Origin: Aurantiochytrium sp. KH105
Taxonomy: Eukaryota > Sar > Bigyra > Thraustochytrida > Thraustochytriidae
Reading direction: 5' to 3'
DNA: 64,000 nt
Assembly (NCBI GenBank): GCA_003116975.1
Contig: BGKB01000126.1
Coordinates: 62,001-126,000, forward strand
Below the pieces are notes generated by a model. That model did no database searches. It had not been told where the DNA came from and saw nothing but the letters and a program-made list of their open reading frames with translations. Below are positions 30,246 through 52,061 of this stretch, one piece after another. Positions within the stretch are counted from its first letter, which is position 1; the number at the start of each line of letters is the position of its first letter. A program made the translations under genes and the position numbers.

Positions 30246-33200
30246 TTACTCAAGTTTGCGACGTTTGTTGCTCTTATTAGAGTGCCCAAAAGGAAACGGC
30301 GGTGGAATAAAGTCGACTTCCACCAGAAATTGACTAATGAGCGGTACTCGTATGTAGATGTCGCGAATTTCCGCTCTCGCAGCCACGATGCGATCCTGAA
30401 ACCTAGTGATCCTTTGAAGCTTTGCGATCACATGCGGAGATGCTTCGTCATCCGCTGAAATCGTGCTCAAAGAAGCAGCTCCAGAGGTCAGAGCAATTCT
30501 ATCGTGAGGTGGCCGCAACTCCTCAAAAGCTGACATAAGACAGACACGAGAGCAAATATATAAAGTGAACCTCATCTCCAACAGATTCTTCTCCAAAGCC
30601 TGCAGCTGAGCACGCAACTTTGCCATCGTTGCGTTGAGGCGAAAGTGATACTCCATGACATCTGCCCAGGGGTTCATCACTTCCTCTCCGTCTTCATCAT
30701 CGTCTTCCTCGTCCTCGCTCGCCATGTCGGCGAACATACCCATTCCCAGGAATTCGACGTCCCCGGTAACCATGTAATTCGCTTCCAAGGCAGAAGAAAG
30801 TGCCTCGATCCCGACGCGACCCATATTTTTGAAGTTCAAGCTGTGCAAAGACGGTGCAAGTCAGTCGAGAGGTAAGAAAATGAGAGAAGAGCGCGTGCCG
30901 TGCGCGGGAAAAGAATAAAAGAAGAAGAAGAAGAAGAAGAAGAAGAAAAACGCACCCTATTTGTGTCAATGTTTTGCTGCGGCGGAGCAAGTTGGCCAAC
31001 GCGAGGGCTCCCTCGTCGGTGATTGTCACATTGTTGACACTGCGCGAGAATAAATATACAAATGTTGCGCGGACAACCATTGTCGAACCGTTAGTCAGAC
31101 AACGCACATAGCTAGTTGCATGATTGTTCGATGGTGACGTACCTGAACTCTCGTGCGTGAGGACTCTCGATAAGGGCATTTGCAAGCGCCGTCACGCCGC
31201 GATCCGTAAGCGACGTTGCAAACATGCTGCGCGTCACAAAATCAATAGTGTGCGGACGAAGACATCAGTGACTTGAAACAAAGCAATTGGTAGTCTCTCG
31301 CAACCGCGATTAAAAAAAAACGTACTCAATCACCCGCAAACGTCCGAGCCGGCCGGCGACGGCTAGCGCACCGGCGTCTCCTACATTTTTGTTATTCCCG
31401 AGCCTGTCAGTGAAATGAAGTCAGCGATTTGTTAGTTTACTGATCCAGCGTTTTTGAATAATAACTCTCTTCCATCAATTCTGAAACAACGTACAAGAGA
31501 GCTTGAAGTGTTCCGAGACCTTCCGCAAGACCTTGCGTGCCCACTTCACCGATGTGGTTGTACCAGAGACTATGTTGAAGCGAAGGTGCGTCGGTCAGAC
31601 CTCGTGCATATGGGAGATGATGTTATGGCACTGAAGCGCAGCGTTAACGTACATGAGATCTTGAAGGACTTTGTTCGTTTTCAGGCAAGCACCGAGCGCG
31701 CAGGCTCCAGCATCGCCAATTTGGTTGTCCCCAAGACTGAGAATATTTTGTATAAGCACGGTACAGCACGGCACGGTACAGCGCAGCGCAGCATGAAAGG
31801 TCAGCATCTGGTTCTCAACTTGCGTAGATGTTGTAGAGAAAGGTAAAACGTACTCGATAATCCTTAAGCGCGGGTGAGTGCCGAGTCCGCTGCTCAACGC
31901 CGCGGCGCCAGCATCGCCTAATTCATTCTCGCCCAATCTGTCTCGCAGAAATTGATTGCGTCAGTCAGTGAAACTTGATCGCGAGAGAGGGCGGGCCCTT
32001 CGTTAGAGAGACGTACAAAAGCTCCTCCAAAGTTGTGTTTTGAGCGAGCCCAGCGCCTAGTGCGTTGGCACCTTCTGCGCCAATTTTGTTGTGCTTCAAA
32101 CTGCAGGGCATTGGATCAGGTACGGAACGGTCAGTCAAACGTGCTTCAGGAAAATTGCATGACGTAGGCGCACTTACTTGAGCAAAACAAGATGACGAGT
32201 TGCAGCGAGCCCTGTGGCAATGCAAGCGGCACCGTGATTGCCGAGCCCGCATTCGTGCAAGCTGCGCGAGAAGAAAGAGATACATAAGGGAAAATGTTAG
32301 AGAAGAAGGCGTTCCTACTTCTTTTCTCCCCCCCACCCTCTCTCGCTTTCGGTGAATCGGCCGAGTCCAACTTACTTGAGTTGTCGCAGCCTATTAGAAT
32401 TCATTATTGTCGTGAGGCTGTTGATACCAGCTATATTTGGATTCAGGCTACATAGACTGTGAGAGCAAAGGCACATGGATGTTAACGTAAGAGCGTGAAG
32501 AACAATTTGTCGCAAGCACAGAAAACGTACTTGAGGTACTCGAGAGAAGGATGATCTCCGGCGCTCTTACACAAAGCGGCAAAGCCTTCGTCACTTATTG
32601 GATTTTTCCAAAGACTATGAGCATCGGGAAATTGTTAGTTTGTGTGCGTGTATACAAAAGAGAAGAACGACTGGCATTCGCATTTTTAGAGGACTTGTCC
32701 GGGAAAACGTACTTTAATCGTAAAAGACGAGGGTGGCGCAGCACGCCATCTGCGAGCGTCTGTGCGCCCGCGTTATTGATGTTGTTCCGCACAAGTCTGG
32801 GCACATTGGCGATAGTTAGTAAAACTATGCTCATTGCGTGGGGCAAAGGGCAAAGAAAGGGTGAACGGGTGTTGCGGCGGTGTACGTACACGAACTCTTC
32901 GAGAGACTCATTGTGCTCCAGAAAGAGATCCACGAGAGTCATGGCGTGCAGTCTGTTGTTTGTCAAGCTTTGAGGTTACCGCGAAGGAATGAGTTGTCAG
33001 CACATGGACGATCTTGAAATGAGAGGCAACAAGGTTGCCTTTGAATACCTTTCGCTCGACTTACTCCAGCACGCGCAAGTTCTCGCAACTGCTCAGGGCA
33101 TCGTACAAGCGCGCGGCAGCGGCATCATCGAGTCCTAATTTCTCTAGTCTGAGTACGGATTTATTTCATATAATGGAAGTCAGCATTTTTGTGCACGAGA

Positions 33201-34713
33201 GTTCGGGTTCATTGCATTCTGTGAAGATGGATCAAACATGCAAGGTCGGGTGTTTAGGGGCACGTACCGCAAAATTTTCAGGCTGTGATTTGCGCGGAAA
33301 GAGTCGAAGAGGAGCTGCGTCACAGGATGGCAGACAACTTCGTAATTCGGTGTTCCTTGGCACGAAAGGCTTCTCATGAAGAAATCGACCAAAAGCGAGG
33401 GAAAATGGGCATACAGTCACGTTAGTTCGCACAGCGAGTCACGACTTTTGTGCTGTCAAGAAGCTGCTTCCATGGAAGAGTATCATCATACGTACTAGAG
33501 CTCTCGGAGCGAGGTTGAGTGTGTGATGCCTCGAGCCAGATGAGGCAGACCTTCTATGCCAAGCTTGCAGCAATCGACTCTGTGCGGCCGTGAAAGGATA
33601 TGAGGTGAGCATTCAATTCATTGCGAGTGTGCGGAAGAAAGGGGTGATCGACAGAGAGTCAAAGCAAAGGGGGCTGAGATGAAAGGGACCGACTGTCTGG
33701 AAACTTACTCCAGAACATTGAGGGACGTTGATTTCTGCAACAGGTCTCCAAGGGCCTTCCCGCCGGTGTCACCTGCTGTTTCTCCGCGCAAGCTGTAGAA
33801 AAGCCAACAAGTCGTGGACAACGAAAGATCAGTGAAGGAGTCAGTAAGAACTGAACGTGCTCGCAACGTTTGGGGCCTGGTCTGGTCTACCTTGCCCCCG
33901 AGGACTGAAGTTTGAGTTCTTTTGGCACTTACGAGAGTTTTTGCAGCATTGGGAAAGACTCGAGCGTCGATGCGATCGCCGCGACATGTTCAGCGAGGAG
34001 ATTATTTTGATCCAGACTGCGCAGGAAGCGTGTTTTGCTTTCACTGTGTCAGTTCTTGCCGCCGGCACAACAAAAAGGAGGGTCGAAATGATCCGAAGCG
34101 AAGCGACGCGAGGTCGGCCTCCGCTGGTGTGCGCAAGAAGAAGATTCTGCTTTTCTGACGTACCCGATCTCCCAGACTGAGAGAGCCTTTCTCACTTCGG
34201 CTTCGATTTCGTCGACGGAATTCGTCACGAGCTTGATCGTGGTGACCCTTTCGCTCAGGTCGGTGGTGTCTGGGAAAAGGTTGGAGTTGGTGACCCTGCG
34301 AGGATGCTCTTTCTCTGTCAGCTAGATTCGGCCCTTCTCCTCGTGTCATCTGCGGTATATACCACCACAGATAGGAAGCGAAACCTACTTTACGGTCTTG
34401 AGAGTTTTCCCAAGTGCTCGAAAGACCTGTGCCAGCTCGGGCGCCGCGAGGTTCCCGTGTATCCTGCATCCGCAAGGCCGCCAGGCAAGGCCGTCAGCTC
34501 TCCCGCTCCTGCGTCGCCCCTCCCCCCGCCCGCCCTCCCTCCCTCCCTCCCTGGGCGAGCTCCTCGCCGCTTGCATGCTCAACTCGCCCAGGGCGCGCAC
34601 CTGCGCTGCATGCAGCCGGGCCCCTCGATCGGCCGTCCTGTCCCCTCGCCCGCGCTCCGCACCGCGCCCACGCACCAGACCTCCTCGCCGCCGCGCAGCA
34701 CCTCGTGCGCCAT
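30246..34713 (-). CDS. 21-exon leucine-rich-repeat protein (RI/NLRC3-type repeats), one repeat per exon
   Basis: Spliced prediction of 778 residues. Exons 5' to 3': 34713-34601, 34463-34389, 34295-34164, 34016-33933, 33792-33709, 33579-33496, 33369-33268, 33148-33065, 32967-32890, 32796-32713, 32614-32531, 32456-32376, 32261-32178, 32100-32017, 31937-31854, 31736-31653, 31569-31495, 31403-31326, 31226-31143, 31039-30956, 30840-30246. All 20 introns (74-147 nt) are GT-AG and phase 2; donors are mostly GTACGT or GTAAGT. CTGAC/CTAAC branch-like motifs are seen in the introns inspected. Exons 4-20 each encode one ~28-residue repeat of the ribonuclease-inhibitor kind (for example LGDNQIGDAGACALGACL), eleven-plus of exactly 84 nt. 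The last exon adds one repeat, an acidic patch, a helical segment and a basic KRRK end. Start: ATG in GGCCATGG. Likely a protein-binding scaffold; ligand unknown. Exon 1 is the least certain. Confidence 0.85.
30921..30946. repeat. (GAA)n tract inside the last intron of the leucine-rich-repeat gene
   Basis: On the coding strand this is (TTC)n, lying 9-34 nt after the GTGCGT donor of intron 20, well away from the acceptor. Confidence 0.9.
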
Positions 34714-46455: not shown

Positions 46456-48678
46456 ATGAGCACGCTTAAAGATGCTGCACGCACGGCGTGCAAGCTTTTC
46501 GCTCTTCTCGCCGCCTGGGCTTGCGCCTCGTACGGCATCGTCGTTGTACTTTGGTCTGAAGACAAGAGTGTCACGGAGAAAGCCGGAGAAGTATTCGAGA
46601 TCGAACCCATGCGTTCCACGCAGTCGTACTTTGCCGCGGCTCTCGTTGGCATCATGACTGCCGTGGGCGCCACCTTCACCGCAATCTATCTGCATCTGCA
46701 TCACCCCAAGCCGGGCAAGGGAGCTGGCTGGCGCCGTCTTTCGCTCATGGCATGGAAAACTGTCGACGTGCCGTTCATGGGACGTCTCGCCGTCATCGAG
46801 ATCTTTTTGCTTCTTCTCTGGATTGGCCTTCAATGCATGACTATGTACCAATTCTACTTGAACTGGGTTGACAGAATGCTCAGCAGAGGCCGTGAATACA
46901 CCCTCAAGTTGAAATTCTTCGGTATCTGCCGCATGTTTGGAGCCGGTCTCGGGGTCAACCTTGCGTTTTTCATGATCCCTGTTTCCAAGCACTCGTTTTG
47001 GCTCGAGCTCGCGGATGTCGGCTTTGAGCGTGCGGTTCGGATTCACCGCTGGCTCGGCGTGCTTGTTATCGTCATGTCCCTTGGTCACCTTTTCCTGGGC
47101 ATCGCCACCTACGTAGAAGACAGTAACCTCTTTTGGTGCATGGGTTGGACGTCCGAGCAACCAGACGAGACGCTTTGCAGGCCCAAGCTTGTCAAGATCA
47201 ACATTTACGGCGAAGTGGCAATTGCAGGAGGCATTTTGATTGGGATCACCTCCTTTCCTATTGTACGCCGCTACTCGTATCAGCTCTTTTACTACTCGCA
47301 TCTCATTGGCGCTTTCCTCTTCTTCGCCTTTGGAATTGTGCACGACAAGAACACCTTTTACTATCTCTTTCCAGGCATCATCACCTACGCCGTCGACAAG
47401 GTCATCTCGACCGGTCGTCGCGCCCGCTCTTGCAGTCTTTTGCATGCTAGCGTCAACGCCGACACCGCCTGCACCAAGCTCGAGGTAGCCGTGGCGCACG
47501 ACACTCCGTTGCCTCGCCAGGGTCACTGGTACCATATCAACATCAAGGAAGCCTCTGCGCTCGAGTGGCACCCCATGAGCGTCGCGGAAACAAACGAGCA
47601 GGCCCACTCCATCACCTTTTACATTCGCCACACCGGAAACTGGTCCACGCGTGTGGGCGAGGTCACATCCAGCCGTGAGGGCAACGAGCTAACGGTCAGA
47701 CTTGACGGCCCCTTTGGTGGTACCCATACGGACAAGAGTGGGTACATGGCCAACGACGCAGCAGCCTTCGTCTCGGGTGGCATCGGAATTACAGCTCACC
47801 TTCTCGGCGCCAAGGCCGCGATTGATTCCGGGGCCTTTCGTCATGTGGCGCTGCGCTGGTTCGTCACGAGCCGCGCGTTTGTTTCACAGCATGCGCACTC
47901 TCTCAAGTATCTGGCCGACAAGGGTGCTGACGTTCACGTGTACGTCACGCGCGACGCCATTGCGGATGAAGGGGCCGTGTCTCAACCTTCGCACGTGTGG
48001 AACTTTGACGGTGAAAGCGGGAAACTTCGCCGGTTCTCGACGACCTTCAGCTCGCCCTTGGCCAAGTGCTCTATGTCGGCTGCAGCCGCAGTTGCCTTTA
48101 TTTGGGGCATGTGGAAGACTGCCGTCTGGCTTGACAAGGACGCGCAGAGTGAACTGACCCTTGGCGCGAACCGCGGTGCTGCGCTGGCGTTTTCGGTCCT
48201 TGCCTGTTTCGCTGGCGCTTTAATTGTCGCGGTCGTTACAATCATCGTCAACTTTGTTCTCTCCAAAATGGGCGCTTCTCGCGCGCCTTCGCCGCAGGCC
48301 AAGACTGTCGCCAAGGCAGCTGCGGGTTATGAGGGTCCCGAACTCGAACGCGCGAGCACCCATGCGTCTTCGGAGGATTCCTCCGAGGCATCGTCTCAGG
48401 ATGGGGAACTTGCCATTCGGGATGTCTCCGAGATGTACGTCAAGTCTGTTTTCGACATTGAAGACTTGGTCTCGCAGGGCAAGCCTTCTCTGGACGAAGT
48501 GATGGCGACGCTTGCGGAGACTATTGCCGCGAAGACTTCAGGCAGCCAAGTTTGCAATGCTGGCGTCACCGTTTGCGGGCCTTGTGCTCTTGTGGACGGT
48601 GTCGTGGACGCTGCCAAGGCTGCCAACGCCAAGGGCAACGTACGCTTCATCATTGACGAAGAGGAGTACGCCTTTTAA
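46456..48678 (+). CDS. ferric reductase / NADPH oxidase-like transmembrane flavocytochrome (paralog 1)
   Basis: 740 residues from an ATG at 46456 in AACAATGA. The ferric-reductase transmembrane domain carries two His pairs spaced H-x13-H: HRWLGVLVIVMSLGH and HLIGAFLFFAFGIVH, the bis-heme ligands. The FAD motif HPMS lies in EWHPMSVAE. The NADPH site shows GGIGIT, and near the end VCGP. The C-terminus is an aromatic residue (EEEYAF), as in NOX and ferric reductases where it stacks on FAD. Two extra hydrophobic segments (about 540-560 and 575-600) are inserted within the NADPH-binding half, followed by an acidic Ser-rich loop; plant FRO reductases have similar late helices. It passes electrons from NADPH across a membrane to Fe(III) or O2. 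No EF-hands or peroxidase domain are present, so ferric reductase is favoured. Confidence 0.88.
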   Translation: MSTLKDAARTACKLFALLAAWACASYGIVVVLWSEDKSVTEKAGEVFEIEPMRSTQSYFAAALVGIMTAVGATFTAIYLHLHHPKPGKGAGWRRLSLMAWKTVDVPFMGRLAVIEIFLLLLWIGLQCMTMYQFYLNWVDRMLSRGREYTLKLKFFGICRMFGAGLGVNLAFFMIPVSKHSFWLELADVGFERAVRIHRWLGVLVIVMSLGHLFLGIATYVEDSNLFWCMGWTSEQPDETLCRPKLVKINIYGEVAIAGGILIGITSFPIVRRYSYQLFYYSHLIGAFLFFAFGIVHDKNTFYYLFPGIITYAVDKVISTGRRARSCSLLHASVNADTACTKLEVAVAHDTPLPRQGHWYHINIKEASALEWHPMSVAETNEQAHSITFYIRHTGNWSTRVGEVTSSREGNELTVRLDGPFGGTHTDKSGYMANDAAAFVSGGIGITAHLLGAKAAIDSGAFRHVALRWFVTSRAFVSQHAHSLKYLADKGADVHVYVTRDAIADEGAVSQPSHVWNFDGESGKLRRFSTTFSSPLAKCSMSAAAAVAFIWGMWKTAVWLDKDAQSELTLGANRGAALAFSVLACFAGALIVAVVTIIVNFVLSKMGASRAPSPQAKTVAKAAAGYEGPELERASTHASSEDSSEASSQDGELAIRDVSEMYVKSVFDIEDLVSQGKPSLDEVMATLAETIAAKTSGSQVCNAGVTVCGPCALVDGVVDAAKAANAKGNVRFIIDEEEYAF

Positions 48679-49670: not shown

Positions 49671-52061
49671 ATGCTGCAAAGCGGAAAAGGAGGGTGCCGC
49701 GACCTGGAGCTCGAGCTACCGGAGAAGAACTACAAGCAGCAGACGCTTCCCAGGACGGCCAACTTTGGAACGTTTGACAAAAGGGAAAACCCGTTCCGCG
49801 CAGAAATTGTGACGAGGGCGGCAAACGCGATTGTCCAAGGTCTTGAGGTGAGCGATAAAAGTCACGCGAGTATGGGGCTTGCGGCGAAGCTGCGCACGAG
49901 CGTGAACGCTGCGTTTTTGGTGGGTGCGTGGGCATGCGTGGCCCTTGGCGGCGCCTTTCTCATCTTTGAGAATGACAAGAGCTTTTCTCGAGTAATGTCG
50001 GAATACCTTGAAATCAAAGGATTGCACCATTCGGCGCTCGCCGTGGGTATGTTGGTCGTCTTCACTGCATTCGGTGGTGTCTTTGTCGCTGGTCACCTGG
50101 CTCTGCGCCGGTCAAAACCCGGCGCTGTGCGGTGTCGCCGATGCTCAACGTGGACATGGCGCATGGTCGAAGTTCCGTTCTTTGGGCGCATGGCCCTTGT
50201 TGAGATCACGCTTATGCTGGCATGGATTCTACTTCAGTCCATTACCATGATGCAGTACTTTATCAAATTAAAGGAGCACCATAGCTCTCACGGGGAAGGA
50301 ATGACCACCAAGACGATTTTGATGGGCCTTTGCTGCATGTTCGGCATTGGCTTTGGTGTGAACCTGGCTGTTCTCATGCTCCCTGTCTCCAAGCACTCGT
50401 TCTGGTTGGAGCTTCTCGACGTTGGATTTGAGCGTGCTGTCCGCGTCCACCGCTGGATCGGAGTCCTGGTCATGGCTCTTATCGTGCTTCACGCGCTTTT
50501 CGCTGTGCTGACCTACATTCACGTGGAGAGCCTCGCGTACTGCATGGGCTGGAGCAGCGTGTCACCAGGAGATGATGCGTACTGTCAACCTGTGCTCGTC
50601 AAAATCAACATCTACGGCGAGATCGCGTTCGCCGGAGGTATTCTTCTCAGCGTCACATCCCTGCCCGCGGTGCGACGCTTTTCGTACCAGCTGTTCTACT
50701 ACTCGCATGTAATTGGCGCGGTGTTATTCTTTGGGTTTGGCATCATCCACTTTTCGTCGACATTGACATACTTTTTGCCTGGTCTCGCCACGTACGTCGC
50801 CGACAAAGTTATTTCGACATGGCGACGGGCGCGCTCTTGCTTGTTGCTGCACTACAGCGTCAATGACGAGACAGACTGCACCAAATTGGAGATCGCACTT
50901 GATCAAGACACGCCACTGCCTCGTCAGGGCCACTGGTACCACGTCAATGTCCGGGAAGCTTCCGTGCTTCAGTGGCACCCCATGAGTGTGGCCGAAACCA
51001 ATGCTGAGGAGCACTCCATCGTTTTTTACATTCGGCACGATGGTGACTGGTCGAGTCGGCTCGGCAGTGTTGCTCGGGCTCGAGCGCTGCAGCAAGAAGG
51101 TCTCACAGTCCGTCTGGACGGCCCTTTCGGAGGCACGCACACGCGCCATAGTGGGTACATGAATAACGACGCGGCCGTCTTTGTCTGCGGCGGAATCGGC
51201 ATCACAGCCCATGCGCTCGCTGTCGAAGCGGCCGTGGCGTCAGACTGTTTTCAGCTCGTCGCGCTCCGCTGGTTTGTCACAAGAAAAGCCTTTTTAGATC
51301 AGCACACAGCCGTGCTTGAGCGACTTGCGGGCATGGGCGCTGACGTTCAGGTACACATTACTCGTGGGGCCGACGTCGAACGTGAGGCAAATTTGCAGCC
51401 TGCCACACGATGGTCGGAGTCGTCATTGTTGAGGAGGTCCAGGTGGCGCTACGCGACGAACCTGGACTCTGGCATTGCCAAAGCGATTGTAACTGCTGCC
51501 GCGGCTCTCTCGCTGGTGGGGGCCCTTCGCAGTCAGGGGACCAAGAACCCTGGGCATCACCATCACGACCACACGCAAGAGAATTTTTTCCTCGAGCACG
51601 CAAAGAACTTGACTTTCATTGTTGGCATGTGTGTATTGATCACAGTGGCCGTGGCCATCAAATTTTCGATCGTGACAAAAGCGTTGCGTATTCTCTGCCC
51701 AGACAAGATGTTTCGAGCATGGACTCGCGTCGCCAAGAAACTAAGTCTGAGTGACGCGGAGCTGGCGCTGACGTCTCCGGATCCGCTTGAGCGGCAACGA
51801 TTTCTTGTCGATGGCGGCTCCCTGCCGAGTACTCCCGCGTCGGGCGAGTTACTCTCTGTGAGCTATGGGCGCCCACGACTCGAAGACGTGTTCGCTGAGC
51901 TCGCTTCAAACCTGGAGGAACGCTCCACTGGCATCCGTCTCGCTGGCGTCTCTCTCTGCGGACCAGAACGCCTTGTCAACGGGTCGATCTTGGCCGCAAA
52001 CACGGTGTCGAAAAATTCGACTGTAACCTTTATCATTGATGAGGAAGAGTACTCATTCTAA
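49671..52061 (+). CDS. ferric reductase / NADPH oxidase-like transmembrane flavocytochrome (paralog 2)
   Basis: 796 residues from the ATG at 49671. The first paralog begins at a position matching Met68 here (ATG at 49872, A at -3 and G at +4), so the true protein may have 729 residues. The 67-residue extension has normal codon bias, so both starts stay open. It has the same bis-heme H-x13-H pairs (HRWIGVLVMALIVLH and HVIGAVLFFGFGIIH), HPMS, GGIGIT and a CGP motif near the end, with a final EEEYSF. Long blocks are shared with paralog 1. The late pair of hydrophobic segments is retained, but the loop between them has GHHHHDH, absent from paralog 1. Head-to-tail arrangement indicates tandem duplication. 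A role in iron uptake or superoxide production is inferred. Confidence 0.87.
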   Translation: MLQSGKGGCRDLELELPEKNYKQQTLPRTANFGTFDKRENPFRAEIVTRAANAIVQGLEVSDKSHASMGLAAKLRTSVNAAFLVGAWACVALGGAFLIFENDKSFSRVMSEYLEIKGLHHSALAVGMLVVFTAFGGVFVAGHLALRRSKPGAVRCRRCSTWTWRMVEVPFFGRMALVEITLMLAWILLQSITMMQYFIKLKEHHSSHGEGMTTKTILMGLCCMFGIGFGVNLAVLMLPVSKHSFWLELLDVGFERAVRVHRWIGVLVMALIVLHALFAVLTYIHVESLAYCMGWSSVSPGDDAYCQPVLVKINIYGEIAFAGGILLSVTSLPAVRRFSYQLFYYSHVIGAVLFFGFGIIHFSSTLTYFLPGLATYVADKVISTWRRARSCLLLHYSVNDETDCTKLEIALDQDTPLPRQGHWYHVNVREASVLQWHPMSVAETNAEEHSIVFYIRHDGDWSSRLGSVARARALQQEGLTVRLDGPFGGTHTRHSGYMNNDAAVFVCGGIGITAHALAVEAAVASDCFQLVALRWFVTRKAFLDQHTAVLERLAGMGADVQVHITRGADVEREANLQPATRWSESSLLRRSRWRYATNLDSGIAKAIVTAAAALSLVGALRSQGTKNPGHHHHDHTQENFFLEHAKNLTFIVGMCVLITVAVAIKFSIVTKALRILCPDKMFRAWTRVAKKLSLSDAELALTSPDPLERQRFLVDGGSLPSTPASGELLSVSYGRPRLEDVFAELASNLEERSTGIRLAGVSLCGPERLVNGSILAANTVSKNSTVTFIIDEEEYSF

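Follow-up and report, generated by a model that had tools for sequence, protein, structure and literature searches.

On the minus strand of the window (the whole 64,000-nt stretch of DNA that was analyzed) lies a gene of 21 exons, running from an ATG at 34713 to a stop codon at 30246 (table 1). The 21 minus-strand exons and 20 GT-AG, phase-2 introns proposed in a preliminary description were borne out by exon threading and by an allelic copy of the gene (contig C111:97594-102051): boundaries and phase hold for 20 of the 20 introns, and the length of the internal exons is a multiple of three in 19 of 19. Exons 4-20 each encode a single ribonuclease inhibitor (RI)-type leucine-rich repeat (LRR), again as described. 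Their size is indeed mostly 84 nt (exactly so in 12 of 17), but the 63-nt exon 9 had been left out of the sizes given; likewise, 19 introns fall within the reported range of 74-147 nt, whereas intron 1 measures 212 nt. The first full codon 3′ of each intron specifies L, I, V, or M (20/20), and the exon border falls inside the β-strand of the repeat (LxxL|xLxxN). When every phase was allowed, threading recovered the donors of all 20 introns and the acceptors of most; those of exons 2, 6, 7, and 8 were placed manually, as was the single last exon. Among the other ORFs of the window that were scanned, 9 of 16 contain a Pfam domain above the cut-off in one frame, which for these nine is compatible with the earlier statement that all other confident genes are single-exon. 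A tRNA scan and an Rfam scan of the window gave no matches.

Table 1. Exons of the window gene and features of its C-terminal tail, in window coordinates
Feature	Position	Strand	Length (nt)	Content	Basis or remark
Exon 1	34676..34713	-	38	start codon ATG at 34713	0/38 differ in allele
Exon 2	34389..34463	-	75		exon model + allele
Exon 3	34164..34295	-	132		exon model + allele
Exon 4	33933..34016	-	84	LRR	exon model + allele
Exon 5	33709..33792	-	84	LRR	exon model + allele
Exon 6	33496..33579	-	84	LRR, ends in TA	exon model + allele
Exon 7	33268..33369	-	102	LRR-like, weak acceptor AAG, same in allele	exon model + allele
Exon 8	33065..33148	-	84	LRR	exon model + allele
Exon 9	32890..32952	-	63	short LRR	exon model + allele
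Exon 10	32713..32796	-	84	LRR	exon model + allele
Exon 11	32531..32614	-	84	LRR	exon model + allele
Exon 12	32376..32456	-	81	LRR	exon model + allele
Exon 13	32178..32261	-	84	LRR	exon model + allele
Exon 14	32017..32100	-	84	LRR	exon model + allele
Exon 15	31854..31937	-	84	LRR	exon model + allele
Exon 16	31653..31736	-	84	LRR	exon model + allele
Exon 17	31495..31569	-	75	LRR	exon model + allele
Exon 18	31326..31403	-	78	LRR	exon model + allele
Exon 19	31143..31226	-	84	LRR	exon model + allele
Exon 20	30956..31039	-	84	LRR	exon model + allele
Exon 21	30246..30840	-	595	final LRR, acidic stretch, tail with predicted helices, stop codon	exon model + allele
Acidic stretch	30681..30716	-		EDEEDDDEDGEE	translation
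Predicted long helix 1 of tail	30516..30671	-		model residues 57-108	ten-residue block mean pLDDT 58-77; weak
Predicted long helix 2 of tail	30318..30437	-		model residues 135-174	block means about 61-72 in most; weak
Basic C-terminus	30249..30278	-		NKSNKRRKLE	translation

The encoded protein matches Pfam LRR_6 with 74.9 bits against a cut-off of 23.4 (E = 1.8e-21), and its closest solved relatives are ribonuclease inhibitors (E = 1.8e-25). The consensus of 18 hand-chosen repeats is xLxxNxLGxxGAxALAxxLxxxxxLxxL; a score above the Pfam cut-off and a repeat of 28-29 residues identify the LRRs as RI-type. The Pfam scan of this protein returned LRR families alone, with no Roc, kinase, TIR, ankyrin, or NACHT domain. 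The tail helices come from a single-sequence model of exon 21 alone, of low confidence (mean pLDDT 55.5), and the terminal NKSNKRRKLE presumably resembles a nuclear import signal. The C-terminus shows a weak likeness of 29.6 bits to a single-frame LRR protein at C26 (195 of 300 shuffles also gave an alignment, the best of 22.7 bits), which reaches 38.1 bits with one LRR included and is at most suggestive. RanGAP also combines LRRs with an acidic tail, together with a catalytic arginine. An acidic stretch is present in the window protein, but a RanGAP identity is not favored: the match to RanGAP1 is weak (E = 1.3e-9), and by its motif the single-frame L032 (C7:592500-596500) looks like the better RanGAP candidate.

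Genome-wide, a pattern combining an acceptor with an LRR gave 712 matches versus 17 for the control, and its CTC sub-pattern 75 versus 0. In 52 of these 75 cases, the 15 kb downstream hold, on that same strand, an exon for Roc (30) or for kinase-TIR (22), compared with 2 in the control 3.5-18.5 kb upstream on the same strand and 0 on the opposite strand; the remaining 23 have neither within 15 kb. In this count, the Roc set consists of 112 matches merged by hand into 92 starts, and the kinase-TIR set of 30 starts from 84 matches, weak ones being dropped. The terminal exons following two other arrays encode a Roc domain (E = 4.5e-18, with COR-A at 2.5e-12, and E = 9.8e-20, respectively), and a ROCO-like layout is seen at C5:204k and C6:638k. 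As the domain matches show, many of these LRR-exon genes close with a single long exon that encodes either a Roc GTPase (LRR-ROCO) or a kinase-TIR module; intracellular receptors are laid out in this way, and the genes may function as such.

A second threaded gene, L035, has nine exons without exon indels between alleles, phase 2 being imposed here by the script. Its exons carry one repeat each, plus one exon holding three; for the protein, the last acceptor was moved upstream of the script's choice, which looked wrong. Many LRR genes of the same genome occupy one long frame each, among them kinase relatives in a 1313-aa frame. Introns are therefore unnecessary for such proteins, and the exon model of the window gene still stands. 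The window gene has one LRR per exon, phase-2 introns, and the border described above. The explanation that we favor, and consider likely as a whole, is that it belongs to a genome-wide modular class in which an 84-nt phase-2 exon corresponds to one 28-residue RI-type LRR, a class that the preliminary description did not mention. As its Pfam scan revealed none of the Roc, kinase, TIR, or ankyrin domains, it may have nothing but its repeat in common with the receptor-like members.

The growth of these arrays is illustrated by the one at C9 (103-131k), which comprises at least 54 LRR exons, 53 of them of exactly 84 nt, and ends in a frame encoding a kinase (E = 1.4e-23) and a TIR_2 domain (E = 6.7e-8). 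Its exons are on average 81% identical, three pairs being fully so, and its 50 introns have a mean identity of 80% versus 57% when shuffled. The array is apparently missing from the other haplotype. The similarity among its introns thus nearly equals that among its exons, and some units are identical, which shows growth by the copying of whole exon-plus-intron units. Pairwise exon identity, suggested earlier as a means of dating duplications, gives a different picture for the window gene: its equal-length repeats share a mean of 28% identity at the protein level, and intron similarity is 0.480 versus 0.484 when shuffled. Growth by exon duplication, as previously proposed, is therefore strongly supported for the class; for the window gene, whose introns bear no trace of common descent, we infer it from the other members.

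One LRR per exon could alternatively be an ancient eukaryotic inheritance, common to vertebrate NODs and brown-algal ROCO genes, the single-frame LRR genes having lost their introns. In the passages of the reports cited here, the border lies at the same repeat position in NODs (start of XLaaN, PMC2747839; β-sheet site, PMC6642158), and phase 2 also occurs in the ROCO genes of brown algae and in gonadotropin receptors (PMC11378527). The one-repeat exons of L035 next to its three-repeat exon are also what partial intron loss would give. However, exon sizes vary by lineage (72, 84, 90, and 171 nt), and the shared features, with relatives compared within this genome, could be due to convergence; we regard such an inheritance as possible but doubtful. 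Parallel insertion of introns, one per repeat and at the same site, into an already repeated intronless gene is less plausible still. The single-frame genes, including the kinase relatives, and the mutually unrelated introns of the window gene would fit this scenario, but the C9 array bears the mark of unit duplication, and a DNA search with the whole window gene (very common words skipped) yielded, besides itself, its allele and two short matches of 45 nt in exon 16 and 43 nt in intron 1. Introner-like insertion was rejected, as this search found no copies of the window-gene introns elsewhere.

Between the two haplotypes, the exons of the window gene differ by 90 substitutions in 2247 nt with 0 indels, and the introns by 159 substitutions in 2177 aligned nt with 15 indels; GT and AG are retained in the allele at all 20 introns. 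Exon substitutions are distributed 19/15/56 over the codon positions, and dN (0.022) and dS (0.105) give a dN/dS of about 0.21, a ratio that is also low in exons 4-20 taken together. The window gene is genuine: it is spliced and codes for a protein, and the genome that holds it has few introns and is apparently diploid. This is probably a thraustochytrid genome, as suggested by a match to a PfaA-type fatty acid synthase, an enzyme associated with thraustochytrids; the match lies below the curated cut-off of the family, which also scores, below cut-off, in 11 of 14 named control genomes. Both haplotypes carry the same 21 exons with equal lengths, which gives no support to ongoing shuffling of this gene. 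As its repeats have diverged and its exon set is the same in both, the gene is old and settled, most likely a stable member of the class under purifying selection.

The preliminary description viewed it as a combinatorial receptor with repeats chosen by alternative splicing, any subset of exons 4-20 being skippable in frame. Every internal exon does preserve the frame, and splicing of this kind is reported, in the passages cited, for NLRP3 (PMC6642158) and brown-algal ROCO genes (PMC11378527). Nearly all skip junctions are open, but because exon 6 ends in TA, joining it to several later exons creates a stop (5 of 153 junctions in allele A and 6 of 153 in allele B, including the skipping of exon 7 alone). 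Together with the conserved exon set, the low dN/dS, and a protein in which no signaling domain was found, this makes a combinatorial receptor improbable. Most likely, the exons would be spliced constitutively into a single product, a horseshoe comprising about 18 LRRs, whose concave face would bind a partner. The acidic, probably coiled-coil tail may mediate oligomerization and the basic end may direct the protein to the nucleus. The product is probably a scaffold. That the gene is a pseudogene, an assembly artefact, or a chance threading has a negligible probability: frame, splice sites, and codon-position bias are conserved in the second haplotype, and a mechanical finder (acceptor, LRR-like peptide, and donor) returned 10 units in the gene versus a mean of 0.006 and a maximum of 1 in 500 dinucleotide-preserving shuffles.

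Exon-modular LRR genes are already known in vertebrates, brown algae, and ciliates; in this genome, that of a unicellular eukaryote with few introns, they form a large class with 84-nt units. This class resembles a receptor repertoire made by exon copying. We tentatively suggest that thraustochytrids might possess a diversifying intracellular recognition system, in which hundreds of interchangeable 84-nt LRR exons are combined with ROCO GTPase and kinase-TIR effectors, and which would be grown by exon-unit duplication, haplotype-polymorphic, and perhaps subject to exon skipping. The LRR-array-kinase-TIR arrangement would be a receptor layout undescribed in the passages cited here on exon-modular LRR genes (vertebrates, brown algae, and Tetrahymena). 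Because one kinase-TIR family has relatives both in exon arrays and in single frames, the origin of the arrays, ancestral or recurrent, is testable in one genome, the window gene serving as an old, static comparison for the young C9 array. The same genome also allows a test of whether variable repertoires for recognition are maintained in protists, which lack adaptive immunity.

Among known proteins, ribonuclease inhibitor is by sequence the best solved relative of the window protein, but its gene has two repeats per exon instead of one. The LRR-ROCO genes of brown algae, reportedly studied by Zambounis in 2012, have a similar layout to the arrays at C5:204k and C6:638k. In the passages cited, each LRR of 23 residues is its own 72-nt phase-2 exon, in tandem arrays with ROC-COR downstream, and alternative splicing is shown (PMC11378527). 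Phase-2, one-LRR exons are thus common to that stramenopile lineage and to this genome, which is probably a stramenopile too, but here they are mostly of 84 nt and 28 residues, as in the window gene, in which Pfam found no ROC-COR, and this genome has a kinase-TIR branch. Tetrahymena has arrays of LRR exons with phase-2 introns and recent exon-unit expansions, their authors stating in the passage cited that they were aware of no such arrays elsewhere (PMC6564038). Fixed exon length, intron phase, and recent unit expansion are shared with this genome, whereas the ciliate exons are exactly 90 bp long and number tens of thousands, compared with hundreds of candidates here. The vertebrate NOD/NLRC genes belong to a different lineage and encode a NACHT domain, not found by Pfam in the window protein; as described in the passages cited, they nevertheless place, like the window gene, each 28-residue RI-type LRR in an exon of its own, whose border lies in the β-strand at XLaaN (PMC2747839, PMC3848420, PMC6642158).

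The window gene has 21 exons and 20 GT-AG introns, all in phase 2, on the minus strand; the joined exons encode 748 residues. Exons 4–20 each encode one leucine-rich repeat (LRR); a length of exactly 84 nt is shared by 12 of the 17, the others measuring 102, 63, 81, 75, and 78 nt. After every one of the 20 introns, the first complete codon specifies L, I, V, or M, and the repeat-exon borders lie between LxxL and xLxxN, inside the beta-strand. Donors come from a threading in which any phase was permitted; four of the acceptors were placed by hand, as was the last exon, kept undivided. The preliminary description had this architecture right (exon number, GT-AG, phase 2, one LRR per exon in exons 4–20) and erred in two sizes: intron 1 is 212 nt long, outside the 74–147 nt that it gave for all introns and that holds for the remaining ones, and its list of repeat-exon sizes missed the 63-nt exon.

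The exon model was examined with a unit finder requiring phase 2 and an LRR shape. As exons of 60–110 nt in multiples of 3 are permitted, the length of 84 nt is not built in. It found 10 units in the window gene, whereas over 500 dinucleotide-preserving shuffles the count averaged 0.006 and reached at most 1. The rest of the window held 1 unit, and four 10-kb blocks sampled held none. The second haplotype offers the best test; the assembly searched (76 Mb, 367 contigs) holds two. The alleles of the window gene are 93% identical. Of the 2247 exon sites, 90 differ between them, and the exons contain no indels; in the introns, 159 of 2177 aligned sites differ and there are 15 indels. GT and AG are intact at 20 of 20 introns in both. 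Third codon positions hold 56 of the 90 exon changes (dN 0.022, dS 0.105), and exon 1 has none. This comparison of sequences supports the exon model and is no substitute for RNA.

In Pfam, the product matches LRR_6 (E 1.8e-21) and LRR_4 and no other families. Among proteins of known structure it is closest to ribonuclease inhibitors (E 1.8e-25); ciliary and other LRR proteins come next, and NLRPs rank lower. The last exon encodes an acidic stretch, a tail that a weak model predicts as two long helices, and a basic end; searched alone, this exon matched no Pfam domain at E 0.01. The C-terminus encoded by a single-frame LRR gene (L038) weakly resembles the window protein's; the apparent allele of L038 (L039) is split into several frames. 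Another single-frame LRR protein (L032; allele L033 on C10) is RanGAP-like and has an acidic tail. Elsewhere, the window carries an adjoining pair of ferric-reductase-like genes.

Coordinates of the features (C, contigs of the assembly; L, loci read from it)
Feature	Position	Locus
Window gene, ATG to stop	window 34713..30246, minus strand	
Allele of the window gene	C111:97594-102051	
Exons of the C9 array	C9:106501-126500	
28-kb region with the C9 gene	C9:103375-131472	L064-L067
Corresponding site on C35	C35:263667-263722	
543-aa opposite-strand frame	L067:2-1630 (C9)	L067
LRR-kinase relative, 1313-aa open frame, LRRs without introns	C53:284003-287377	L008
LRR-kinase relative, 1313-aa open frame, LRRs without introns	C180:119605-122976	L007
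Single-frame LRR gene	C26:894396-895652	L038
Its apparent allele	C1:443380-444543	L039
RanGAP-like LRR protein gene	C7:592500-596500	L032
Ferric-reductase-like genes	window 46456-48678 and 49671-52061	

The array of the window gene looks old and quiet, judging from its sequence, because its exons have diverged (66 pairs of equal length, mean identity 28% in protein and 39% in DNA), its introns are no more alike than shuffled ones (0.480 vs. 0.484), and both haplotypes have the same exons with the same lengths. The combinatorial splicing proposed initially may take place; skips would nearly always stay in frame, but exon 6 ends in TA, and a stop is created at 5 of 153 skip junctions (6 of 153 in the other allele), including the skip of exon 7 alone. 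The product is most likely a settled scaffold protein. Growth by exon duplication, also proposed, is borne out for the class of 84-nt LRR exons; we infer it for the window gene's own history. The interest lies in this class, reached through the window gene.

A gap-free acceptor-plus-LRR-start pattern, each match of which is a candidate exon, gave 712 matches across both haplotypes of the assembly (337 on the forward strand, 375 on the reverse) and 17 when reversed as a control. A narrower form, the CTC sub-pattern, gave 75 versus 0, all places being listed. The matches listed cluster, often with regular spacing. The finder recovered arrays at C5:204k (6 units, 5 of exactly 84 nt), C5:612k (10, 8), C6:638k (8, 7), C8 (partial; 6, 6), and C9 (54, 53), and no array at three more pattern loci (C1:115k, C1:157k, C6:260k). 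The C5:612k array has 10 units on each haplotype, 92.8% identical. Protein searches, which scored 60 of 196 and 107 of 191 candidates and which short exons may escape, gave mostly long single frames among the LRR relatives scored. A short-frame match in a family search led to L035 on C21 (allele L034 on C68), threaded with phase 2 imposed into 9 exons and 8 introns. It has single-repeat exons and one exon with three repeats, with no exon indels between alleles; its introns lie at the same place in the repeat except the last, whose acceptor was probably misplaced by the script. Separately, long frames match a PfaA-type polyunsaturated fatty acid synthase (one piece scoring 930 bits, curated cut-off 1010), with further pieces on other contigs; this family also matches 11 of 14 control genomes, always below the cut-off. 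As the genome is that of a compact, intron-poor eukaryote, synthases of this type hint at a thraustochytrid but do not prove it.

The C9 array arose by copying of exon-plus-intron units, as its exons and introns are alike and some exons identical: its 53 84-nt exons have a mean identity of 0.811, three pairs being identical, and its introns shorter than 320 nt (n = 50) one of 0.801 versus 0.573 shuffled. The repeat framework is near-fixed. The most variable positions are 3, 4, 6, 26, and 27, which lie around the concave strand, together with 9 and 20. Downstream, a 907-residue frame encodes a kinase (E 1.4e-23) and TIR_2 (E 6.7e-8); the gene has at least 54 LRR exons. An adjoining opposite-strand frame has a TIR match of 25.8 bits (Pfam cut-off 28). 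Matches to a 3-kb segment of the array occur on 16 other contigs, mostly at 73–89%, and weak ones on five more. The flanks of the gene, 28.1 kb apart on C9, are ∼55 bp apart on C35, with identities of 93% and 96%; another comparison gave 98.6% for the right flank, and for the left only 78%, with gaps, over its last 300 bp. Unless the assembly misleads, the gene is on one haplotype and apparently missing from the other.

Of the other arrays, two are followed by Roc GTPase exons (one with Roc at E 4.5e-18 and COR-A at 2.5e-12, the other with Roc at E 9.8e-20), one by a kinase (E 1.4e-8), and one by ankyrin repeats (E 1.7e-8). Roc GTPase genes are greatly expanded, some lying directly 3' of LRR exon arrays (e.g., C5:206148, C6:640504). 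A Roc query gave 112 matches, merged by hand into 92 starts; the kinase-TIR exon of C9 gave 84, from which 30 starts were taken, weak ones being left out. Within 15 kb downstream of the 75 CTC matches, on the same strand, the nearest exon of these two kinds was Roc for 30 and kinase-TIR for 22, and 23 had neither; one of the latter, C9:126990, belongs to the C9 array, beyond 15 kb. Controls gave 2 (starts 3.5–18.5 kb upstream, same strand) and 0 (downstream, opposite strand). Some of the kinase-TIR matches lie in frames of 1313 and 1570 residues in which LRRs are encoded too, and L007, L008, and L027 carry LRRs and kinase in one frame; single-frame relatives therefore exist.

Among the open-access matches listed, no article on exon-coded LRRs turned up for thraustochytrids; a transcriptome paper, in the parts consulted, gives LRR protein numbers only (PMC8917795). 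Human NODs devote a separate exon to each 28-residue LRR, which starts XLaaN (PMC2747839); in most NLRs the LRR exon border lies at one beta-sheet place and LRR exons are frame-preserving, and some NLRP3 mRNA lacks exon 5 (PMC6642158). In brown algae, the LRR exons of ROCO genes are 72 bp long and in phase 2, and both shuffling and alternative splicing occur (PMC11378527); Tetrahymena has arrays of 90-bp phase-2 LRR exons, with none known elsewhere to those authors (PMC6564038). The one-LRR-per-exon design is thus already known. What is new is this lineage's class with kinase-TIR, whose LRR exons are 84 nt long, in contrast to the 72 bp of brown-algal ROCO genes and the 90 bp of Tetrahymena.
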